A stretch of DNA of 64,000 nucleotides, taken from positions 1 through 64,000 of the forward strand of contig JADFSR010000021.1 in assembly GCA_022560615.1 (NCBI GenBank), read 5' to 3'. This document shows positions 17,295-27,600 of the stretch, piece after piece. The stretch's first letter is position 1, and every line of letters starts with the position of its first letter. The notes beneath the pieces were generated by a model, which had not been told where the DNA came from, did no database searches, and was given only the letters and a program-made list of their open reading frames with translations. The translations under genes and the position numbers were made by a program. The stretch comes from Gemmatimonadota bacterium (GTDB lineage: Bacteria > Gemmatimonadota > Gemmatimonadetes > Longimicrobiales > Gaopeijiaceae).

Positions 17295-18423
17295 TTGGGC
17301 TTGATTGTGCAGATTGGCCCGCGACAGTCTGGGAAGACGACACTGTGCCGAGCCACGTTTCCGGACCTGCCCTACGTCTCGTTGGAACCGCTCGACGTCC
17401 GGGACTTCGCGGTCCACGACCCGAGAGGCTTCCTGAGCGAGTACGAGGACGGCGCTGTCATCGACGAGGTGCAGCGGGCTCCGGCACTCTTCTCGTATCT
17501 CCAGGAGGCCGTGGACGCGGATCCTACACCGGGGCGGTTCATCCTCACCGGCTCGCAGCACTTTGGGCTGACCGACGCGATCACCCAGTCGCTCGCAGGC
17601 CGAGTTGGGCAACTCCACCTGCTCCCGTTGAGCCTAGACGAGGTGCGCCGCTTTCCGTCCCGGCCATCAGATCTTTGGGATACGCTTTTCACGGGGGGGA
17701 TACCCGCGGATCCACGATCGCAGCCTGGTGCCATCGCAGTGGCTGGGGGACTATGCGACTACCTATGTGCAGAGGGACGTTCGACAGGTCCTGAACGTCA
17801 CCGACCTGGAATCGTTCGCCACGTCCCTGAGGCTGCTCGCCGCGCGCACCGGCCAGACGGTCAACCTTTCGAGCCTCGGTGCCGACGCAGGCGTGACACA
17901 CAATACCGCGCGCTCCTGGATCTCAGTCCTCGAAGCGAGCTTCGTCGTCTTCCGAACGCCGCGATGGCAGCGCAATCTCCGGAAGCGAGCGGTGAAGGCT
18001 CCGAAGCTCCACTTCGTGGATTCCGGCCTCGCATGCTGGCTGCTGGGCATCCGAGAGCCGGAGCAGATTCGACTCCATCCGCTGCGCGGAGCGATCTTCG
18101 AGAGTTGGGTCGCGTCGGAGATTCTCAAGGCCCGGTCGCACGCAGCCAAGCCCGCTGATCTCTTTCATCTGCGCGAAGACCGCGGCGCCGAGGTGGACTT
18201 GATCGTCGAAGCGGGCAACACCGTCCGCGCGGTCGAAGCCAAGTCCGGGGCAACGGTGGCGGAAGACTTCCTCGAGCGGCTGATCGCGTTCGGCGACGCC
18301 TTGCGGGAGCGGCATCAGCACCTGCAGGCGGAGCTGTCTCTGGTACACGGGGGGACGCAGCGTGGGCGTCGCAACGATGTGCGTCTCATCCCGTGGCAGG
18401 AGATTCAAGACTTCGAGTGGTGA
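17295..18423 (+). pseudogene. AAA_14/DUF4143 ATPase, frameshifted at a run of seven G
   Basis: Frame 1 from TTG 17295 gives the ATPase half: IGPRQSGKTTL (Walker A), AVIDEVQRAPALFSYLQ (Walker B) and LTGSQHFGL (sensor). It fails at about 17693-17699. The second frame then continues YPRIHDRSLVPSQWLGDYAT and the DUF4143 half (ARSWISVLEASFVVFRTPRW, PKLHFVDSGLACWLL, AVEAKSG) to 18423. Dropping one G from the seven-G run joins them as FTGGYPRIHD, the expected family sequence, so this is one gene of about 375 residues with a +1 indel. It may be a true lesion or a consensus error. The first 20 or so residues usual before Walker A are also missing. Function in this family is poorly defined. Confidence 0.8.
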
Positions 18424-18468: not shown

Positions 18469-19983
18469 ATGTCTGACCGCACCTCGTTCGAAGTCATCGT
18501 GCTCGGAGGCGGTCCCGCCGGCACCGCGGCGGCCACGCTGCTTGCCCGCCGGAGCCACGAGGTGGTGCTCGTCCGTCCCGCTTCCCATCCGGCCGGGAAG
18601 CTCGCCGAATCGATTCCGCCGTCCGCGCGGCGACTGCTCTCCGAGCTGGAGGTGCTCGAGGCTGTGGAGGCGGCCGGCTTCTATGCGAACACCGGCAACA
18701 CCGTGTGGTGGGCGGACGCCGACGCGCGCGGCGAGCGATTCGGGACTAAAGAGCCCGGTTTCCACGTGGACCGAGTCGGCCTCGAGCGCGTACTGGTCGC
18801 GGCCGCGGAATCGTGCGGCGTCCGCCTGCTGCTCGGCATGCTGGCCCGCGCGGCGGTGCAGAGCGAGGACGGATGGAGTGTCACTTGTGAGGGCGCCAAC
18901 GGCGAAACCCTCGAGCTGCGCGCCCCGTGGCTCATCGACGCCACGGGTCGGCACGGGCTGCTCGCCCGCGACGTGCGCGAGCCGGACCGTTCCACGACCA
19001 CGCTGGCGTTGCTCCGCAGATTCCGGCGCCCGGGAGGCTGGGGGGATGAAGTGCTCGGCCAGACGCTCATCGAGAGCTACGAGGACGGATGGGGATGGTC
19101 GGTGCCGCTCTCGTCCGAGACCCGATGCGTGACCGCGATGATCGATCAGCGCCACGCGGAGCTGTCGGGCGTCGATGTCGGCGCGATGCTGGAGACGGAG
19201 CTGGCCAAGACGCGGCATCTCGGCGCGTTGCTCGAGGGCGCGACTCCGGAGGACGAGGGCTGGGCGTGCCCGGCGTCGCTCTACTGCGCGTCCCAGTATG
19301 CACGGCCGGGTCTCGTCCTCGCCGGCGACGCGGGGTCTTGCATCGACCCCCTCTCCTCGTACGGAGTGAAGAAGGCGCTGGCGTCGGGATGGCTCGCGGG
19401 GGTCACGGCGCACACGGCGCTCATCGACCCGCCGATGACGGAGGTCGCTGTCGACTTCTTCGACACCCGTGAACGCGAGGTCTACCGGAGCTACCGTCGG
19501 CGCGCCGCCGAATTCTTCGAGGAAGCGGCTGCCGCATACGGACATATATACTGGGCGACGCGCGCCCAAGCCGCGCGTACCGCCGGCGGAGAGAGAGACG
19601 GCCTCGACGTCGATCGGCTCGAGGCCCTCGACGGACCGCCGGTGTCGGAGCAAGACGTGCGCACGGCCTTCGAGCGAATCCGCGCCCGGGAGTCACTCGG
19701 TGCGGTCCGCGGCTCGACGGTTCGGCCGATCGAGAGAGCTGCGATCGCCCACCAGAGGATCGTGCTCGAACAGCACTTGGCAACCGACCAGCACCCAGAG
19801 GGCATCCGCTTCCTGAGGAGCGTGGATCTGCGCACGATGAGCGAACTGGCGCCTGAGCACGACCAGGTCCCCGAGCTGTGGAGCGCCTACAACGGAGTCG
19901 AAGCACCCGTGCCGCTCCCGGACTTTTTGACCGCGCTCGCCACTGCGTTCGCCGCAGGTCTGCTCGAGCATCGGAAGGATTGA
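18469..19983 (+). CDS. qhpG: QHNDH maturation flavin monooxygenase QhpG
   Basis: The protein is 504 residues from ATG 18469. It has the FAD dinucleotide fold FEVIVLGGGPAGTAAATLL at residues 7-25, the LVLAGDAGSCIDPLSSYGVK segment typical of flavin monooxygenases and halogenases, and overall similarity to tryptophan-halogenase-like hydroxylases. In the known QHNDH system QhpG hydroxylates the precursor tryptophan of QhpC to build the tryptophylquinone. Placement immediately before qhpA (its TGA overlaps the qhpA ATG) in a full qhp operon is the main reason for the assignment. It should act in the cytoplasm on crosslinked QhpC before export. Confidence 0.85.
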   Translation: MSDRTSFEVIVLGGGPAGTAAATLLARRSHEVVLVRPASHPAGKLAESIPPSARRLLSELEVLEAVEAAGFYANTGNTVWWADADARGERFGTKEPGFHVDRVGLERVLVAAAESCGVRLLLGMLARAAVQSEDGWSVTCEGANGETLELRAPWLIDATGRHGLLARDVREPDRSTTTLALLRRFRRPGGWGDEVLGQTLIESYEDGWGWSVPLSSETRCVTAMIDQRHAELSGVDVGAMLETELAKTRHLGALLEGATPEDEGWACPASLYCASQYARPGLVLAGDAGSCIDPLSSYGVKKALASGWLAGVTAHTALIDPPMTEVAVDFFDTREREVYRSYRRRAAEFFEEAAAAYGHIYWATRAQAARTAGGERDGLDVDRLEALDGPPVSEQDVRTAFERIRARESLGAVRGSTVRPIERAAIAHQRIVLEQHLATDQHPEGIRFLRSVDLRTMSELAPEHDQVPELWSAYNGVEAPVPLPDFLTALATAFAAGLLEHRKD

Positions 19984-21752
19984 TGCGCGCAACCCTGGCG
20001 GATCGTCGGTCAGCCTCCCAGGATGATCGGGTCACCGTTCCCAAACACCCCACCCGCCTGATGGTGTCTGCCAAACGCATCGCTCTTGCAGTCGCTGGCC
20101 TAGCGGTCTCTCTCGCATGGACTGCCTCACCGGCGTTCGCGCAGGAAGACGAAGACGAAGAGGGGTATGCGATCACGAGCCAAGTCGTAATCGAGAGCTG
20201 CCAACGGTGTCATGCCGTCCACGACGAGGGGCGCATGACCCGGATCTCGTATCTACGCAAGACGCCCGAAGGCTGGCAGACGTCGATCCGCAGGATGGTG
20301 GCGCTGCACGACGTAGGGCTGACGCCCACAGCGGCGCGGGAGATCGTGCGCTACCTCTCGGACCGGCAGGGCATCGCTCCCGAAGAGTTGCGCCCTGCCC
20401 TCTTCGAGGTGGAGCGACGCCTGACCGACCACGATTACGAGGGTGACTCGGGCGTCGAGTTCACGTGCATCCAATGTCATTCCATGGGGCGCGTGATGAC
20501 GCAACGCCGCACGAAGGACGAGTGGGGACTGCTGATCGCGACGCACCGCGCACTCTATCCGCTGGTGGACCGCTTTCAGTTCAGGCGCCGCGGCCCAGCC
20601 CCGACCGAGCCAGGTCCGGATGGACGTCCGCCGGACGGACGCCACCCGATGGACAGGGCGATCGATCACCTCTCGAGCGTCTATCCGCTCGAGACCACGG
20701 AGTGGTCCGCGTGGTCTGCGACGATGCGTCCGCCCCGACTGGCGGGCACATGGGCGCTCTCCGGCTACGAGCCTGGCAAGGGCCCGATCTACGGAACGGT
20801 GACCATCTCGGCGAACCCGGACGACGACGCGGCCTTCACGACAACGGCGTCCTACATGTACGCCGAAAGCGGTGACGCCGTGGAGCGCTCCGGGCAGGCG
20901 TTGGTCTACACCGGATACCAGTGGCGCGGGCGCTCGAACCCGGGCGCGGACTCGGAGCTGCGCGAGGTCATGTTCGTGGAACGGGATCAGCGCGAGATGT
21001 CGGGCCGCTGGTTCACGGGCGCGTACGATGAGATCGGCCCGGACGTGAAGCTGCGGCGTGTGGGCGGTGAAGCGATCATTACCGGGGTATACCCGAAGGC
21101 GGTGGCGCGCGGGGAGCCGGTCGAGGTTCGTGTATTCGGCGGGGGGCTGACCGCCGGATCTGTAGCGGGCCTCGATTTCGGCTCTGGCGTCACCGTCGTC
21201 TCCGTGAGTGGCCCGAATGACGGCGCGTTGCGCGTGAGCCTCACCGTCGCGGACGACGCCCAGATCGGCGCGCGCGATCTCTTCGCCTTCGGTGCATTTC
21301 TCGAGGGCGCGCTCGTCGTTCATGACGGCGTGGACCGCATCGCGGTGACCCCGGAGACGGGCATGGCCCGAGTGGGCGGAGGCAACTTCCCGAAGGGATA
21401 CCAGACCTATGAGGCGATCGGCTTCGACGACGGACCGGACGGCGAGCCCGAGACCGACGACGACCTGAACCTCGGTCGCGTAGACGTGTCCTGGTCCGTG
21501 GAAGAATACGCCGCGACGTTCGGAGACGACGACGTCGCTTTCATCGGCTCGATGGGCCAGGACGGGACGTTCGTTCCGGCGATCGACGGGCCGAATCCCG
21601 ACCGTGTGGGCAGTCGTAACAACGTCGGCGACGCGTGGGTGATCGCGACCCATAGGACGACGGAGGGAGCAGAGTTGCGCGCTCGTGCGCACCTGCTGGT
21701 GACAGTTCCGCTCTACATGCGCTTTGAACCTTGGAAGGAGGTCTCCCGATGA
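19983..21752 (+). CDS. qhpA: Quinohemoprotein amine dehydrogenase alpha subunit (diheme)
   Basis: The protein is 589 residues from ATG 19983, chosen for the GGAAGG box and overlap with the qhpG stop; ATG 20061 is possible and gives a shorter signal. The signal peptide spans residues 27-54 (VSAKRIALAVAGLAV, cleavage AFAQ). Two heme c sites are seen: CQRCH at 73-77 and CIQCH at 162-166, both with CxxCH. The C-terminal beta-rich domains follow (about residues 225-589). In the enzyme the hemes carry electrons from the quinone cofactor of QhpC to external acceptors in the periplasm. The neighbours qhpD, qhpC and qhpB confirm the subunit identity. Confidence 0.93.
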   Translation: MRATLADRRSASQDDRVTVPKHPTRLMVSAKRIALAVAGLAVSLAWTASPAFAQEDEDEEGYAITSQVVIESCQRCHAVHDEGRMTRISYLRKTPEGWQTSIRRMVALHDVGLTPTAAREIVRYLSDRQGIAPEELRPALFEVERRLTDHDYEGDSGVEFTCIQCHSMGRVMTQRRTKDEWGLLIATHRALYPLVDRFQFRRRGPAPTEPGPDGRPPDGRHPMDRAIDHLSSVYPLETTEWSAWSATMRPPRLAGTWALSGYEPGKGPIYGTVTISANPDDDAAFTTTASYMYAESGDAVERSGQALVYTGYQWRGRSNPGADSELREVMFVERDQREMSGRWFTGAYDEIGPDVKLRRVGGEAIITGVYPKAVARGEPVEVRVFGGGLTAGSVAGLDFGSGVTVVSVSGPNDGALRVSLTVADDAQIGARDLFAFGAFLEGALVVHDGVDRIAVTPETGMARVGGGNFPKGYQTYEAIGFDDGPDGEPETDDDLNLGRVDVSWSVEEYAATFGDDDVAFIGSMGQDGTFVPAIDGPNPDRVGSRNNVGDAWVIATHRTTEGAELRARAHLLVTVPLYMRFEPWKEVSR

Positions 21753-23200
21753 ACCCACCCGTGACGACCGCGTCGGAAACCATCGCGCTGCGCGAATTCC
21801 ACGCCTTCGAGGCGCACGGTGCTCGCTTCCTCTACATGGTGCCGTCCGCGGGCATCTTCCGGATGGATGGTCCGTCGGTAGCGATCCTCGACGCGCTCGA
21901 GGGCGGACCACGAGGCGCCGAGTCGCTGATCGAAGAGCTCTCGAGCGACTACTCGATCGAGCAAATCGTGGAGACGATCGAGGAGCTCACCGAGATCCGA
22001 GCGATCGGAGACGTGGACGCGCCCAAGCAGCAAGTACCGAACGACCTACCGCCGGCCGGCTTCCCGCTCACGACGATAGTCCTCAACGTGACCAACAAGT
22101 GCAACTTGGCGTGCACCTACTGCTACGAGTACGGCGAGGACAAGATCGTCGATACCAAGTACGGTGACGCACCCAAGTTCATGAGCGAGCGGACGGCCGA
22201 AGAGAGCGTCGAGTTCCTGCTCAAGGAGTCGCGCGGCCAGGAGGTCGCGCACCTGACGTTCTTCGGGGGAGAAACGCTGCTCAACTTCCCGGTGCTGCAG
22301 AAGACCGTCGCCTACGCGCGCCGGCGCGCAGCGGAGGAAGGCAAGCGCATCGAGTTCTCTCTGACGACCAACGCCACGCTGCTCCGCCCCGAAATCATCG
22401 AGTGGCTCGCCGACAACCAGATCGGCGTGACGATCTCGATCGACGGCCCGAAGGAGGTGCAGGACGGGCTACGCGTCTTCCACAACGGCAAGGGCACGTA
22501 CGATGTGATACAGCCGAAGATCAAAGAGCTCCTGCGCGTACACCGGAGCCGGCCGATCGGAGCGCGGGTCACGCTCACGCAGAAGAACATGGACGTGCTC
22601 GAGATCTTCCGTCATCTCACGGAGGACATGGGCTTCTGGGAGGTCGGTCTCGCACCGGTGACTTCCCAGGACGAGCGGGACTATGCGATCACGCCCGAAG
22701 GCAAGGATTCGATGCTCGGCCAATTCGAGATCCTCGCCCAGGAGTGGCTCCAGTGCGCGCTCCGTGACGAGCACCACGGCTTTTCGAACGTGAAGGATAC
22801 GCTCGAGGAGATCCACAAGGGCGTGAGCAAGGCGTACGGATGTGGCGCGGGGCTCGGCTTGATGGGGGTGTCGACCGACGGCAACGTCGCGCTGTGCCAC
22901 CGCTTCGCGGGCTCACCCGAGCACACCATCGGCTCGGTCACCGAAGGCATCGATCGCGATGTGCAGAACAAGTTCTTGCGAGACCACCACATCGCCTCGA
23001 AGACCGACTGTCACACTTGCTGGGCACGTCCGATCTGCTCAGGCGGATGTTATCACGAAGCTCACGTTCAGTACGGTGAGTCGACGCACCCGAACCTGCA
23101 CTACTGCACCTGGGTTCGTAGCTGGACGCACATGTGCCTGGAGATCTACGGAGCGTTGGCCGAGAAGAACCCGAAGTTCCTGGAGCGTTTCGATGCATAG
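21749..23200 (+). CDS. qhpD: Radical SAM thioether-bond maturase QhpD
   Basis: The protein is 483 residues from ATG 21749, with GGAGGT at 21737-21742, overlapping qhpA by ATGA. The radical SAM cluster motif is CNLACTYC (Cys118, 122, 125). The C-terminal region has the SPASM-like Cys set: KAYGCGAGLGLMGVSTDGNV, ALCHRFAG, DCHTCWARPICSGGCYHEAH and HYCTW, enough for auxiliary Fe-S clusters. The known QhpD installs three Cys-Asp/Glu thioether crosslinks in QhpC. The gene sits directly before qhpC. The N-terminal 100 residues are a probable peptide-recognition element. It is cytoplasmic. Confidence 0.94.
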   Translation: MNPPVTTASETIALREFHAFEAHGARFLYMVPSAGIFRMDGPSVAILDALEGGPRGAESLIEELSSDYSIEQIVETIEELTEIRAIGDVDAPKQQVPNDLPPAGFPLTTIVLNVTNKCNLACTYCYEYGEDKIVDTKYGDAPKFMSERTAEESVEFLLKESRGQEVAHLTFFGGETLLNFPVLQKTVAYARRRAAEEGKRIEFSLTTNATLLRPEIIEWLADNQIGVTISIDGPKEVQDGLRVFHNGKGTYDVIQPKIKELLRVHRSRPIGARVTLTQKNMDVLEIFRHLTEDMGFWEVGLAPVTSQDERDYAITPEGKDSMLGQFEILAQEWLQCALRDEHHGFSNVKDTLEEIHKGVSKAYGCGAGLGLMGVSTDGNVALCHRFAGSPEHTIGSVTEGIDRDVQNKFLRDHHIASKTDCHTCWARPICSGGCYHEAHVQYGESTHPNLHYCTWVRSWTHMCLEIYGALAEKNPKFLERFDA

Positions 23201-23227
23201 AAGGGTGATCGGAAAGGGAGGCGACGA

Positions 23228-23593
23228 GTGAAGCACCTGAAAGGCATCAACCAGAAAGCCGCTCGCATCGAGGCGTACGTTGCGTACGAGGCTGAAGAAG
23301 CGAGGGTAGCCGAGCTCGACGTGGTCGCGCTCGAGAGCAGACCGCCACACGAAGAAGATGGGCCGCACTTCCCGCTGGGATGCTCGCTGGTCTTCTTCCC
23401 CGGCTGGGAAGCGGATCGGCAGGGCGGGACCGCGGGTCTGTGCCAGCCGGTGGAGCGCGACCTCTTCGACTGTCACTTGAATTGCTTCTGGCCGGCGCAC
23501 GTGCCCGACCAGCTCAATCACGCGCCAGACTGGACCGGCAAGTGCGCTTCTGCCCAGAAGGACTGGCGGACGCTCGATCTCATCTTCCCCTAG
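23228..23593 (+). CDS. qhpC: QHNDH gamma subunit, CTQ-bearing crosslinked peptide
   Basis: The protein is 121 residues from GTG 23228 with GGGAGG 6 bases upstream. The core from PLGCSLVFFPGW to DWRTLDLIF matches the known gamma subunit. With an offset of 45 from published numbering, all crosslink residues fall at identical spacing: Cys52-Glu61, Cys72-Asp78 and Cys86-Asp94 for the thioethers, and Cys82 with Trp88 for cysteine tryptophylquinone. The leader is therefore about 45 residues, longer than the 28 known for Paracoccus, and acidic (EAEEARVAEL). One extra Cys106 has no assigned partner. The precursor is modified by QhpD and QhpG and cut by QhpE, and the product forms the catalytic site. 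Confidence 0.95.
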   Translation: MKHLKGINQKAARIEAYVAYEAEEARVAELDVVALESRPPHEEDGPHFPLGCSLVFFPGWEADRQGGTAGLCQPVERDLFDCHLNCFWPAHVPDQLNHAPDWTGKCASAQKDWRTLDLIFP

Positions 23594-23612
23594 CCGCCGG
23601 CGAGTCCCTGAT

Positions 23613-24707
23613 ATGATGCGTTCGCTCATCCGAAGCGCTGCGGCGCTCGTCCTGATGGCGGCTGTGGGAGTGGCCGCCCTCGAGGCCCAGGCCAACGCCC
23701 GCTGGTACATCGCCACGTACAGCAACCACCTGCTGGTGTGGGACGAGGCGAGCGAAAAGGTCGTCGACCGGATCGAGGTGAGCAACTTCATCCCGACCGA
23801 CATCGTGGTGAACGAGAAGAAGGACCGTCTGTACGTGATGGAGGCGAGTTCGCAGAAGGTCGAAGTCGTGGACCTCGGGACGAACCAGGTCATCGACGAG
23901 TTCACGCTCTCCGAGGGCAACGTGGCCGTGCGCATCGGCAGCTTCGCGCCGCATCCGTCGGACGAGCGGGCCGTGTTGTTCGTGAAGCGCTATACCAAGC
24001 ACAGCGATCGCTACGAGGTGGAAGGGCCGTTCATCCTCGAGTACGACCTGATCACCAAGACGGTGAGCGACACGATCCCGTGGCCGGACGGCGAAGAGCG
24101 TGAGAACGTCAGCTTCCGGTACTCACCCGACGGCAAGACGCTCTACCTCTTCACGGACGACATCATCGCCCTCGACGCCGAGACCTTCGAGGAAGTCGAT
24201 CGTTGGGAGATCTCCCAGGCACTCGAACCCGGCCTCGGTCGGCCGAGCTTCGGAGTGACCCCAGGCACGTATGATCAGGACGGTGTCGTGACGAGCCTCT
24301 TCCGCATGACCGACCCGGCGCAGAACCGACGCATGATGGGCATCGCGCGCGTGCGGCTCTCCGAGAAGGAAGTCGACTTCTACACGCTCGGCACCAACGA
24401 GCCCGTCGGCCGCTTCAGCGTCGCCCCGGGCGGCGAGAAGGCGTTCGGCCTGTTCGCGGAGATCGGCCGTTACGAGTTCTGGGAATTCGACCTCGTGAAC
24501 CGGCGCGTCGCGCAGCGCGTCCCCTTCGCGGGCCGACCCCGCATGGGACTGCAAGTGAGCGCGGACGGACAGAAACTGTACATTCACGTCGCCGGAAACA
24601 CGATCGACATTTACGACTCGAGCACATTCGAGTATTTGCGCACGGTCAGCTTCGACGAAGACATGACCGGTGTGGCGGTGATTCCCCAAGGAGGCAGCAC
24701 ACCATGA
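23613..24707 (+). CDS. qhpB: QHNDH beta subunit, beta-propeller
   Basis: The protein is 364 residues from ATG 23613. A signal peptide (MMRSLIRSAAALVLMAAVGV, then ALEAQ) precedes the repeated blade sequence: RWYIATYSNHLLVWDEASEK, LYVMEASSQKVEVVDLG, PDGKTLYLFTDDIIALDAET and QKLYIHVAGNTIDIYDSST. The pattern is that of the seven-bladed propeller of the QHNDH beta subunit, which packs against the CTQ pocket. The gene is 19 bases behind qhpC and overlaps the next start by ATGA. It is periplasmic. The position and size are as in the family. Confidence 0.92.
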   Translation: MMRSLIRSAAALVLMAAVGVAALEAQANARWYIATYSNHLLVWDEASEKVVDRIEVSNFIPTDIVVNEKKDRLYVMEASSQKVEVVDLGTNQVIDEFTLSEGNVAVRIGSFAPHPSDERAVLFVKRYTKHSDRYEVEGPFILEYDLITKTVSDTIPWPDGEERENVSFRYSPDGKTLYLFTDDIIALDAETFEEVDRWEISQALEPGLGRPSFGVTPGTYDQDGVVTSLFRMTDPAQNRRMMGIARVRLSEKEVDFYTLGTNEPVGRFSVAPGGEKAFGLFAEIGRYEFWEFDLVNRRVAQRVPFAGRPRMGLQVSADGQKLYIHVAGNTIDIYDSSTFEYLRTVSFDEDMTGVAVIPQGGSTP

Positions 24708-25078
24708 AACGCTTCGCCATGTCGTTCACCCTCGTCTTGGTGGTCGCGGCATGCTCGTCAGGGCCGCCGGAGCCGCCACCGCCCCCTCCGTTCACCCCGG
24801 CTGGCGTCTTCGACATCACCATCGACGCGATGGGCACCGAGATGGCTGGCTCGATGACGATCGAGGGCATGGACGGCGCCTACACGGGCAGTCTCACAAC
24901 CGACCTCGGTACTGTCGCGCTCACGGATTTCGCCGTGGACGGCATGGAAGTCACATTCGCCGGGACCATGCCCCAGTTCTCGATCGAGTTTACGCTGACC
25001 TTCGAGGGTGACGGGTTCACTGGTGCTTTGGACTTGGGCGACATCGGCACCGGCTCGATCACGGGAGTGAAGCGGTAG
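24704..25078 (+). CDS. Small proline-linker lipoprotein inside the qhp operon
   Basis: The protein is 124 residues from ATG 24704, which overlaps the qhpB stop, so the two are translationally coupled. The signal peptide ends at a lipobox (VAAC17) and is followed by a poly-proline linker (GPPEPPPPPPF). The remainder, about 95 residues, alternates Gly, Asp, Thr and hydrophobic residues in repeated strands (MAGSMTIEGM, AYTGSLTTDLG, MEVTFAGTMP, GFTGALDLGD), suggesting a small beta-barrel-like fold. I do not recognise the family. It has no counterpart among the characterised qhp genes I know. A periplasmic membrane-anchored accessory of the enzyme is an inference from position. Confidence 0.75.
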   Translation: MKRFAMSFTLVLVVAACSSGPPEPPPPPPFTPAGVFDITIDAMGTEMAGSMTIEGMDGAYTGSLTTDLGTVALTDFAVDGMEVTFAGTMPQFSIEFTLTFEGDGFTGALDLGDIGTGSITGVKR

Positions 25079-25103
25079 GACACATCCACGCCCCTGTCGT
25101 GAC

Positions 25104-26837
25104 GTGACGCTGCTCGACCCTCACTTCAAGCGTGCCTTGGCGTTCGTGCGCCCCTACGCGGCGCCTCTGGTACCGGTCGTCCTGCTCTCGCTGGCGGGGA
25201 CCGCGCTCAACCTGGTGCTTCCGTATCTGTCGAAGGTGCTCGTCGACGATGCGCTGATCGCACAGGACTTCGGCACGCTCACGCGCATCGTCGGCCTGTT
25301 CGTCGGGGTCACGGTGCTCTCGTTCGGCATGAACGTGCTGAGCGGCATGCGCTACATGAGGGTGTCCGCCGACATCCTCTTCGACATGAGGCTGCACCTG
25401 TATCGGCATCTGCAACGTCTGTCGCCTCGCTTTTACGCCAAGACGCCTCTGGGCGACGTAGTCTCGCGCATCAACGGGGACATCAGCGAGATCCAGCGCG
25501 TGACCACGGAGGCTGCACTCTCCTGGTTCGGTCAGGTGGTCGCGCTGATCGGCACCGTGGGCATGCTGATCTATCTCGACGTTCGGCTCTTCATGGTAGG
25601 GCTCATCGCGCTTCCGCCCGCGCTCTTCGCGCTCGTGCGCTACCGCAGACAGCTCGAGGACCGGGTACGAGAGCTGAGAGAACGCAGTGCCGACATCGGC
25701 ACGTTCCTGATCGAGACGCTGCAGGGCATGCGCACCGTGGTCGGCGCCAACGCGCAGGAGCGAGAGGTCACGAAGTTCCGGGGGAAGAACTATTCGTTCG
25801 TCGACGCGCTGCTCTCCATGCGACTCTTCACGTACCTCGCGGGTGGGTTGCCGGGCCTCATGCTTTCGGTGGGCACGGGCGCGGTGTTCCTGTATGGAGG
25901 CTACCGCGTCATCAATGGAGCGACGACGCTCGGTACGTTCATCGCGTTCATGGCGTACCAGATGCGCCTCATGTCGCCCATCCAGGGGCTGATGGGGCTG
26001 TACTCCAACCTCGCCACGGCGCGCGCGTCGCTCGTGCGCGTGCACGATCTGCTCGACACACCCGCGGAGGTGACCGAGCCCGACGAACCCGTGGCGCTGA
26101 CGGAGTGCGAGGGAGCGGTCGCGCTCGAGGGTGTGCGCTTCGGGTTCGGCAGGGGTGGTGAGGTGCTGGCGGGCATCGACCTGAAGATCCCTGCCGGCCA
26201 AGTCGTCGCCCTGGTGGGCGCGAGCGGCAGCGGCAAGTCGACGATCGCGGATCTACTCTCTCGGCAGCTCGACCCGGAAGAGGGGCGAGTGCTGCTCGAC
26301 GGCCACGATCTGCGGTCCTTGGCGCTGCAGGACGTTCGGCGGCAAGTGGCGGTCGTTGAGCACGCTCCGTTCATCTTCCACGCCACGGTTGCCGAGAACG
26401 TTCGCTACGCACGCCCGGACGCGACAGACGCGGAGATCGACGAGGCGATCGAAGCCGCGGGTCTGTCCGACCTGGTTGCGCACATGCCTGACGGTACCGA
26501 GACCGTGGTAGGCGAACGCGGAAGCCAACTGTCGGCCGGCGAACGCCAGCGACTCGCCATCGCGCGCGCGTTCCTCGCCGACCCCGCGGTGCTGATCTTC
26601 GATGAAGCCACCGGGGCACTCGATCCGGCCTCCGAGGCCGTGGTGCTCGCGGGCTACGACAAGCTCATGCGCGGTCGTACCACGGTGGTGATCACACACC
26701 GTATCGACCTGGCGAGACAGGCGGACAGGGTTGTCGTCATCGAGGACGGCAAGGTCGCCGAAGACGGTCCGCCCAGTGTTCTCGAGGCGGAGGGGCGGGC
26801 GTTTCGCGATGTCTTCCTGGACGTGCTGACCAGATGA
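25104..26837 (+). CDS. qhpF: ABC exporter QhpF
   Basis: The protein is 577 residues from GTG 25104. Six membrane helices (residues 15-300; for example VPVVLLSLAGTALNLVLPYL) form an ABC exporter membrane domain. The nucleotide-binding domain has Walker A GASGSGKST near 372, the Q-loop region, signature LSAGERQRLAIARAF near 475, Walker B VLIFDEATGALD, and the switch ITHR. It is a half transporter of the exporter type. In the known system QhpF exports the modified QhpC to the periplasm. Its position in the operon supports that job. It functions as a dimer in the inner membrane. Confidence 0.9.
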   Translation: MTLLDPHFKRALAFVRPYAAPLVPVVLLSLAGTALNLVLPYLSKVLVDDALIAQDFGTLTRIVGLFVGVTVLSFGMNVLSGMRYMRVSADILFDMRLHLYRHLQRLSPRFYAKTPLGDVVSRINGDISEIQRVTTEAALSWFGQVVALIGTVGMLIYLDVRLFMVGLIALPPALFALVRYRRQLEDRVRELRERSADIGTFLIETLQGMRTVVGANAQEREVTKFRGKNYSFVDALLSMRLFTYLAGGLPGLMLSVGTGAVFLYGGYRVINGATTLGTFIAFMAYQMRLMSPIQGLMGLYSNLATARASLVRVHDLLDTPAEVTEPDEPVALTECEGAVALEGVRFGFGRGGEVLAGIDLKIPAGQVVALVGASGSGKSTIADLLSRQLDPEEGRVLLDGHDLRSLALQDVRRQVAVVEHAPFIFHATVAENVRYARPDATDAEIDEAIEAAGLSDLVAHMPDGTETVVGERGSQLSAGERQRLAIARAFLADPAVLIFDEATGALDPASEAVVLAGYDKLMRGRTTVVITHRIDLARQADRVVVIEDGKVAEDGPPSVLEAEGRAFRDVFLDVLTR

Positions 26838-26910
26838 GTGCGTCGCCGCACCACGAAGACCGTCGGCGGGTGGCCCGAGCGGAAGCTGTTGGAGTCGGCC
26901 CCCTCCGACG

Positions 26911-27600
26911 ATGACTGACGCCCCCGTCACCGTCGCGATCGTCGACAGCGGCGTCAACGTACCTCACCCCCATTTGCCGGGAGTCGCGGGCGGGGTGTTC
27001 ATCGACCTGCATGGCAAGGAGCACGAGGACTATACGGACGGTTTGGGTCACGGCACCGCTGTCGCCTCCGCGATCCACGAGAAGGCGCCGGCTGCCGAGA
27101 TCTACGCCGTGAAGGTCTTCGAAGACGCGCTCGCGACCACTGTTCCTACGCTGGTGCGCGCGATCGACTGGGCGTCCGAGCGCGGTGTCCGACTCGTGAA
27201 CCTGAGCCTGGGCACGCCGAACGACTTTCGTGCCGACGAGCTGGTGCCGGCCGTCGAGCGCTCGATCGAGCGGGGAACGATTATCGTCTCCGCGCACGAG
27301 CACGAGGGACAACCCATGTACCCCGGGTGCCTGGAGGGCGTCGTGGGCGTGATGCTGTCCTGGGATCAACCCAGAGAGAGGGTAGCGACGGTCGTTCTCG
27401 AGTCCGGCGGCTCTGCGCTCGTCGCGTCGGGCTACCCACGCCCGATCCCGGGCGTGCCGCCCGAGCGCAATCTCAACGGAATCAGCTTCGCGGTCGCGAA
27501 CGCCACCGGAGCGCTCGCCGCGGCCCTCGCCGGAAGCCCCGGGCGGCGATCGGCCGAAGCCGCGATGGATGCGCTCCGGAGTGAGGGGGAACGGGTCTGA
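26911..27600 (+). CDS. qhpE: Subtilisin-like leader protease QhpE
   Basis: The protein is 229 residues from ATG 26911. The subtilase triad is complete: Asp12 in AIVDSG, His47 in GLGHGT and Ser192 in NGISFA. It lacks a signal peptide and prodomain, so it is a compact cytoplasmic form, as expected for QhpE, which removes the QhpC leader after crosslinking. The usual oxyanion Asn region reads VSAHEHEG. It lies 73 bases after qhpF; a 26-codon frame (MSASPHHEDRRRVARA...) starting at the qhpF ATGA overlap ends on the qhpE start and may only couple translation. It is the final gene of the operon. Confidence 0.88.
   Translation: MTDAPVTVAIVDSGVNVPHPHLPGVAGGVFIDLHGKEHEDYTDGLGHGTAVASAIHEKAPAAEIYAVKVFEDALATTVPTLVRAIDWASERGVRLVNLSLGTPNDFRADELVPAVERSIERGTIIVSAHEHEGQPMYPGCLEGVVGVMLSWDQPRERVATVVLESGGSALVASGYPRPIPGVPPERNLNGISFAVANATGALAAALAGSPGRRSAEAAMDALRSEGERV

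Follow-up and report, generated by a model that had tools for sequence, protein, structure and literature searches.

Eight open reading frames (ORFs), all on the + strand, occupy positions 18469-27600 of the stretch that we analysed (hereafter the window), which comprises the first 64,000 nucleotides of contig JADFSR010000021.1 of a Gemmatimonadota bacterium. A reading of the sequence alone (hereafter the sequence-only reading) had described here a complete quinohemoprotein amine dehydrogenase (QHNDH) operon in the order qhpG-A-D-C-B-(lipoprotein)-F-E on one strand, and ORF calls and family matches recovered exactly this set at this place. With high confidence, we regard it as a complete periplasmic operon for an amine dehydrogenase that depends on cysteine tryptophylquinone (CTQ), belonging to a branch of the system found in Gemmatimonadota and Acidobacteriota. 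We coin the name "type 2" for this branch, which also includes one Novosphingobium plasmid. The genes and residues discussed below are the following.

18469-19983, + strand: qhpG, predicted flavin adenine dinucleotide (FAD)-dependent peptidyl-tryptophan dihydroxylase (best NCBIfam family NF049967; GGGPAG at residue 13).
19983-21752, + strand: qhpA, alpha subunit with two c-type hemes, four domains and a signal peptide after a long N-terminus.
21749-23200, + strand: qhpD, predicted radical S-adenosylmethionine (SAM)/SPASM maturase for Cys-Asp/Glu thioethers (TIGR03906).
23135-23137, + strand: codon of QhpD Cys463, a Cys in every type-2 QhpD and Gly in proteobacterial QhpD.
23228-23593, + strand: qhpC, gamma subunit precursor with a GTG start, a leader of about 45 residues and the CTQ core (NF037958, PF08992).
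23381-23509, + strand: crosslink codon stretch of qhpC (Cys52-Glu61, Cys72-Asp78, Cys86-Asp94 and the CTQ pair Cys82-Trp88).
23543-23545, + strand: codon of QhpC Cys106 (mature position 61), the fifth core cysteine, from the alignment of type-2 with proteobacterial cores.
23613-24707, + strand: qhpB, beta subunit, a beta-propeller with a signal peptide and no cysteine (structure model and Foldseek).
24704-25078, + strand: small lipoprotein gene with lipobox Cys17, accessory and lineage-specific.
25104-26837, + strand: qhpF, predicted ATP-binding cassette (ABC) exporter for the modified gamma subunit, GTG start (PF00664 and PF00005).
26911-27600, + strand: qhpE, predicted subtilisin-like leader protease with the triad Asp12/His47/Ser192 (NF049966, PF00082).

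The same gene set and order recur in dozens of genomes, so the arrangement is not due to chance. The genes are less tightly joined than had been described: stop/start overlaps occur at three of the seven junctions (G/A by 1 nt, A/D and B/lipoprotein by 4 nt each), and the other four are gaps of 27, 19, 25 and 73 nt.

Protein families were scored against the curated cut-offs of Pfam and NCBIfam, and the PDB was searched both by sequence and by structure (Foldseek). QhpA exceeded the cut-off of TIGR03908 (452 bits), contained four Pfam alpha-subunit domains and matched the alpha subunit 1jmx_A (4.6e-70); its two CxxCH motifs, at residues 73 and 162, point to two c-type hemes, and an alternative ATG start of its gene lies at 20061. 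QhpD reached 557 bits against TIGR03906 (cut-off 453), with PapB as the second best NCBIfam family. It carries the CxxxCxxC motif as CNLACTYC at residue 118, and its SPASM cysteines (365, 383, 421, 424, 430, 434 and 453) are conserved in all 82 type-2 and all four proteobacterial rows. QhpC scored 117.5 bits against NF037958 (cut-off 50) and also matched PF08992. QhpF combines the membrane domain PF00664 with the ATPase PF00005, and has a Walker A motif at residue 372; its gene holds the same place in the operons of relatives. QhpE matched PF00082 and scored 160.1 bits against NF049966, just under the cut-off of 165, with the triad D12/H47/S192 present. The best NCBIfam family of QhpG was NF049967 (213.7 bits, cut-off 240), which its position in the operon fits, and in the PDB it matched 7ctq, 'Peptidyl tryptophan dihydroxylase' (4.5e-10). 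The heme-binding motifs of QhpA, the radical SAM cysteines of QhpD and the complete protease triad of QhpE, all claimed by the sequence-only reading, could each be located in the translations.

QhpB scored 64.7 bits against TIGR03907, far under the cut-off of 223. An AlphaFold2 (AF2) model built from 50 aligned sequences had a mean predicted local distance difference test score (pLDDT) of 92.9, and its best PDB matches in Foldseek were the beta subunits 1jju_B (2.8e-21) and 1jmx_B (7.6e-20, template modelling score 0.80), to which QhpB is 18-19% identical in the structure alignment. The modelled fold, together with a position in the operon that is conserved in relatives, indicates a beta subunit that is present and strongly diverged in sequence.

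The crosslink residues of the gamma subunit can be placed directly. The alignment of QhpC residues 50-121 with the two gamma subunits of known structure (1jmx_G and 1jju_C) is free of gaps and has an offset of 45, and the pairs Cys52-Glu61, Cys72-Asp78, Cys86-Asp94 and Cys82-Trp88 correspond to mature positions 7-16, 27-33, 41-49 and 37-43. These are the pairs known from the literature as Cys7-Glu16, Cys27-Asp33, Cys41-Asp49 and Cys37-Trp43 (PMC8172795). The gap-free match upholds the earlier statement that the residues have the spacing of the characterised proteobacterial gamma subunit, and they are invariant in 81 type-2 and 10 proteobacterial cores, bar one unread X.

Several points weigh against a complete amine dehydrogenase operon. 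Three proteins miss their curated NCBIfam cut-offs, QhpG and QhpE by a little and QhpB by a wide margin, and in the pairwise search with QhpG, halogenases outscore the solved QhpG (7ctq). The neighbourhood of the operon yielded no gene for an electron acceptor, an aldehyde dehydrogenase or a regulator, and no biochemistry on any type-2 enzyme was found in the searchable literature, subscription papers being outside its scope.

The genome that contains this contig measures 4.5 Mb and is 99% complete, and the phylum set around it includes contigs of the Gemmatimonadota metagenome-assembled genomes (MAGs) UBA1120, UWMA-0308, Palauibacter and 'Longimicrobiales'. A tree was built from 93 QhpD proteins; its seven proteobacterial sequences lay on one side of a long branch (support 100), and the 50 Gemmatimonadota sequences formed one clade (97) nested among Acidobacteriota, with the QhpD of the window inside a 15-row clade (99). 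The Gemmatimonadota host proposed by the sequence-only reading is supported by both lines of evidence. Neither of the results named there as refuting it, a proteobacterial taxonomy of the contig or genes inside a recent proteobacterial clade, emerged from the genome assignment and the QhpD tree. The operon is native and old in the Gemmatimonadota, and has long been resident in the phylum.

A recent arrival of the operon from Proteobacteria, or a proteobacterial origin of the contig itself, is highly improbable: some MAGs with near relatives do carry proteobacterial names (L044, L092 and L115), but the QhpD tree and the genome assignment both disagree with such an origin, GC content at third codon positions is even across all operon genes (0.80-0.87), the QhpD of L044 is identical to that of the Gemmatimonadota MAG L046, L092 falls in the Gemmatimonadota set, and L115 falls in a phylum set holding Acidobacteria contigs. 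A recent transfer is ruled out by the QhpD tree. The titles of four MAGs (L044, L088, L092 and L115, named as Rhodospirillaceae, Cyanobacteria, Gammaproteobacteria and Woeseiaceae) conflict with the tree or with the phylum set, and the proteobacterial or cyanobacterial names of near relatives, considered as true hosts, proved to stem from the way in which MAGs had been named or binned.

Among sampled genomes, QhpC occurred in 62 of 298 from Gemmatimonadota and in 21 of 297 from Acidobacteriota, the latter a set whose phylum was named from contigs shared with Acidobacteria MAGs. It was present in 7/398 sampled Pseudomonadota genomes (phylum inferred from proteobacterial-type matches; one of the seven, G300, is a probable misbin), and in 7/318 and 1/293 genomes of two classes drawn around proteobacterial carriers, centre genomes included. 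More than 1300 bacterial species have been reported to carry the system, with variable gene order (PMC7876137), and Gram-positive carriers exist (PMC8172795). The rarity implied by the sequence-only reading is contradicted by these publications and by our counts, in which the operon is commoner in Gemmatimonadota than in Pseudomonadota. Within Gemmatimonadota the operon is ordinary and native, and it belongs to a known system, in which it lies on a deep branch of its own.

The usual gene order in Gemmatimonadota and Acidobacteriota is G-A-D-C-B-F-E. A lipoprotein gene between B and F was found only in the genus of the window and in G226, L036-L038 and L040; it is missing from most type-2 operons, and homologues occur elsewhere in genomes, unlinked to qhp. 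This restriction to close relatives, together with the unlinked homologues, rules out the lipoprotein as a core component. Other type-2 operons of the two phyla (L036-L115) resemble that of the window, usually in gene order and also in a QhpD 59-84% identical to its own, and in carrying both the fifth cysteine of QhpC and Cys463 of QhpD, but unlike it some are interrupted by other genes, ankyrin-repeat genes among them. In some Gemmatimonadota MAGs (L077:6623-9802 and L084:3149-6271), genes for long ankyrin-repeat proteins lie within the qhp cluster or adjoin it, and D and C are further apart. In addition, the Bryobacterales palsa_89 genome (L185) has three QhpC genes, one of them in an A-C-B cluster (L185:12551-15520), on whose 20-kb contig D, E, F and G were not found. 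Considered as an independent contrast to the two main branches, this cluster fell between them, or outside both, in the trees of A and B.

The type-2 cluster of the Novosphingobium sp. RL4 plasmid (NZ_CP141945.1, L116) has the order A-D-C-B-F-E, a type-2 QhpC (Cys61) and a type-2 QhpD (Cys463) that is 48.7% identical to that of the window, in an alphaproteobacterial host; no full QhpG was found within 10 kb of it. The plasmid measures 1.8 Mb and the operon is unannotated in PLSDB; type 2 has reached the Alphaproteobacteria.

The system of the window shares with qhpADCBFEGR of Paracoccus denitrificans and Pseudomonas putida (PDB 1jju, 1pby, 1jmx and 1jmz; QhpG 7ctq) the three subunits, the four biogenesis genes (the putative qhpG among them), the four thioether pairs, the two hemes, the radical SAM and SPASM cysteines, the protease triad and the exporter. 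It differs from it in that qhpG comes first, an adjacent AraC gene (QhpR) is absent, a lipoprotein gene is added and the QhpC leader counts about 45 residues instead of 28, as well as in Cys106 and Asp81 of QhpC and in Cys463 of QhpD, where the Paracoccus and Pseudomonas QhpD has Gly. Identity between the two systems is 36-39% for QhpD, against the 18-19% already given for QhpB from the structure alignment. By its separate branch (support 100) and by the fifth cysteine, respectively, QhpD and QhpC of the window lie outside the characterised proteobacterial subtype.

More distant relatives of QhpD include the PapB family and the SCIFF maturases (e.g. 5wgg), which are likewise SPASM radical SAM enzymes, PapB making Cys-Asp thioethers; unlike QhpD, they act on small peptides and have neither CTQ nor QHNDH subunits. 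QhpD-like radical SAM genes, with products 32-36% identical to that of the window, also occur on plasmids of Bradyrhizobium septentrionale (L207:625-4235) and Rhizobium sp. CB3171 (L208:360-4034), between a LodA_C-like protein (PF18417 at 2.9e-5 in L207, just under the cut-off; motif CSPWQNDYRECACYYWAASRPDYV) and a flavoprotein that carries the annotation tryptophan 7-halogenase. These loci may represent a LodA-like CTQ system that uses a radical SAM maturase; a 2015 survey of LodA-like genes makes no mention of radical SAM. On a Nostoc plasmid (L209:1396-4209), a QhpD-like radical SAM gene adjoins a ferritin-like gene (PF12902), possibly another protein-modifying pair.

With respect to regulation, a profile search for HTH_18 found no AraC-type match on the contig of the window, in agreement with the sequence-only reading, which had seen no such regulator gene there; four matches over the cut-off lie on other contigs of the genome. 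Its further claim that control must differ holds for the absence of an adjacent AraC gene; a difference in control itself goes beyond this, as the regulator may be encoded elsewhere. Sigma-54 activator genes are found close to two proteobacterial qhp operons, so the regulators near such operons differ in any case. A promoter scan found no site and was uninformative. Just upstream of qhpG, an AAA_14/DUF4143 ATPase gene is split over two frames (17295-18423; AAA_14 part from 17295, DUF4143 part 17728-18423), and is either a pseudogene or the product of a sequencing error.

What appears new relative to the characterised enzymes, judged from the alignments and the tree, is the deep type-2 branch and its fifth core cysteine in QhpC. 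All crosslink residues listed by the sequence-only reading are present, but this cysteine had escaped its inventory. Every one of the 81 distinct type-2 cores has a cysteine at the position of Cys106, where each of the 16 distinct proteobacterial cores has either Ala or Val. It is one of five out of 72 core positions (with Gly70, Val75, Arg77 and Asp81) that are invariant or nearly so in type 2 and never found in the proteobacterial set, the exceptions being one for Asp81 and one for Arg77. The same comparison in QhpD yielded 22 branch-specific positions, one a cysteine, Cys463, with Gly in every readable proteobacterial QhpD; no branch-specific cysteine was found in QhpA, B, E, F or G. Since two related radical SAM proteins outside the Qhp system, from Nostoc (L209) and Bryobacterales (L205), also have a cysteine at this position, Cys463 is probably ancestral, and the Gly of Proteobacteria a loss. 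A correlated gain of Cys106 and Cys463 as proof of a new crosslink is weakened by this ancestry and by the fact that the contrast falls on a single branch.

Most likely, Cys106 is a constrained, branch-specific residue with a structural role. We think it probable that it is a buried or otherwise structural thiol, part of a branch-specific packing of the core and engaged in no crosslink: its place is taken by a small residue (Ala or Val) in the gamma subunits of Proteobacteria, and the four other branch-specific core positions imply no special chemistry. Nevertheless, a lone periplasmic thiol that is never Ala, Ser or Val in 81 sequences would be unusual. QhpB has no cysteine in 67/76 type-2 rows and QhpA only its four heme cysteines in 68/72, which leaves Cys106 without a conserved cysteine to form a disulfide with in the secreted complex.

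This lack of a partner in alpha and beta would also suit a fourth Cys-to-Asp/Glu thioether, made by QhpD from Cys106, which would give the mature gamma subunit five thioethers instead of four. We regard this as unlikely. Cys106 is invariant across two phyla, PapB, a homologue of QhpD, forms six Cys-Asp thioethers in a single peptide (PMC8172795), and candidate acceptors exist in Asp112, Asp117 and Asp81. The spacing from Cys106 to Asp112 repeats the C-x5-D of Cys27-Asp33; Asp112 never varies in type 2, with Asn in its place in the proteobacterial L180-L182, and Asp117 and Asp81 are acids nearly specific to type 2. However, invariance is weak evidence where 36 of the 72 core columns are invariant in type 2, and the contrast with Proteobacteria amounts to one evolutionary event at one tree split. 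The AF2 model of QhpC (pLDDT 53) is unusable beyond a hint of a helix at Cys106 (residues 102-111), whose geometry would suit an i to i+6 bond poorly. Cys463 of QhpD, being probably ancestral, is a weakened argument for a new crosslink. Asp81 is excluded as a required partner, as L121 keeps the cysteine with Gly at mature position 36.

It is quite improbable that Cys106 binds something outside the complex, be it another protein through a disulfide, a metal or an electron-transfer partner. The missing partner cysteine in alpha and beta would fit such a role, as would the fact that the electron acceptor of type 2 is not known, but the operon encodes just one further exported protein, the lipoprotein, whose sole cysteine is that of the lipobox and which most type-2 operons lack.

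For the system as a whole, gene content and order, crosslink residues, beta fold, lineage and long residence in the phylum are established; the chemical steps, the substrate and the regulation we infer, chiefly from the characterised enzymes. In the published maturation order, QhpD and QhpG act on leader-bearing QhpC, followed by QhpE, QhpF and periplasmic completion of CTQ (PMC7876137). By analogy, QhpC would be made with its leader and bound in the cytoplasm by QhpD, which would form the three Cys-to-Asp/Glu thioethers. QhpG would then add two oxygens to Trp88 while the leader is still on QhpC, QhpE would cut the leader off and QhpF would export the product. In the periplasm, CTQ (Cys82-Trp88) would be completed, probably with the QhpA hemes, and the gamma subunit would join the alpha subunit with its two hemes c and the beta propeller. 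The enzyme would oxidise primary amines to aldehyde and ammonia, and the electrons would travel by way of the hemes to a carrier whose gene is not part of the operon.

In the literature that we found, the structures and mechanism of QHNDH biogenesis rest on the Paracoccus and Pseudomonas enzymes. As the operon is far commoner in sampled Gemmatimonadota than in Pseudomonadota, much natural CTQ-dependent amine oxidation may rest on an unstudied type. If Cys106 did form a thioether, a whole branch in two phyla would make a gamma subunit more crosslinked than any solved, and the invariant extra cysteine offers a handle on the number of bonds that a single radical SAM enzyme sets in one protein.

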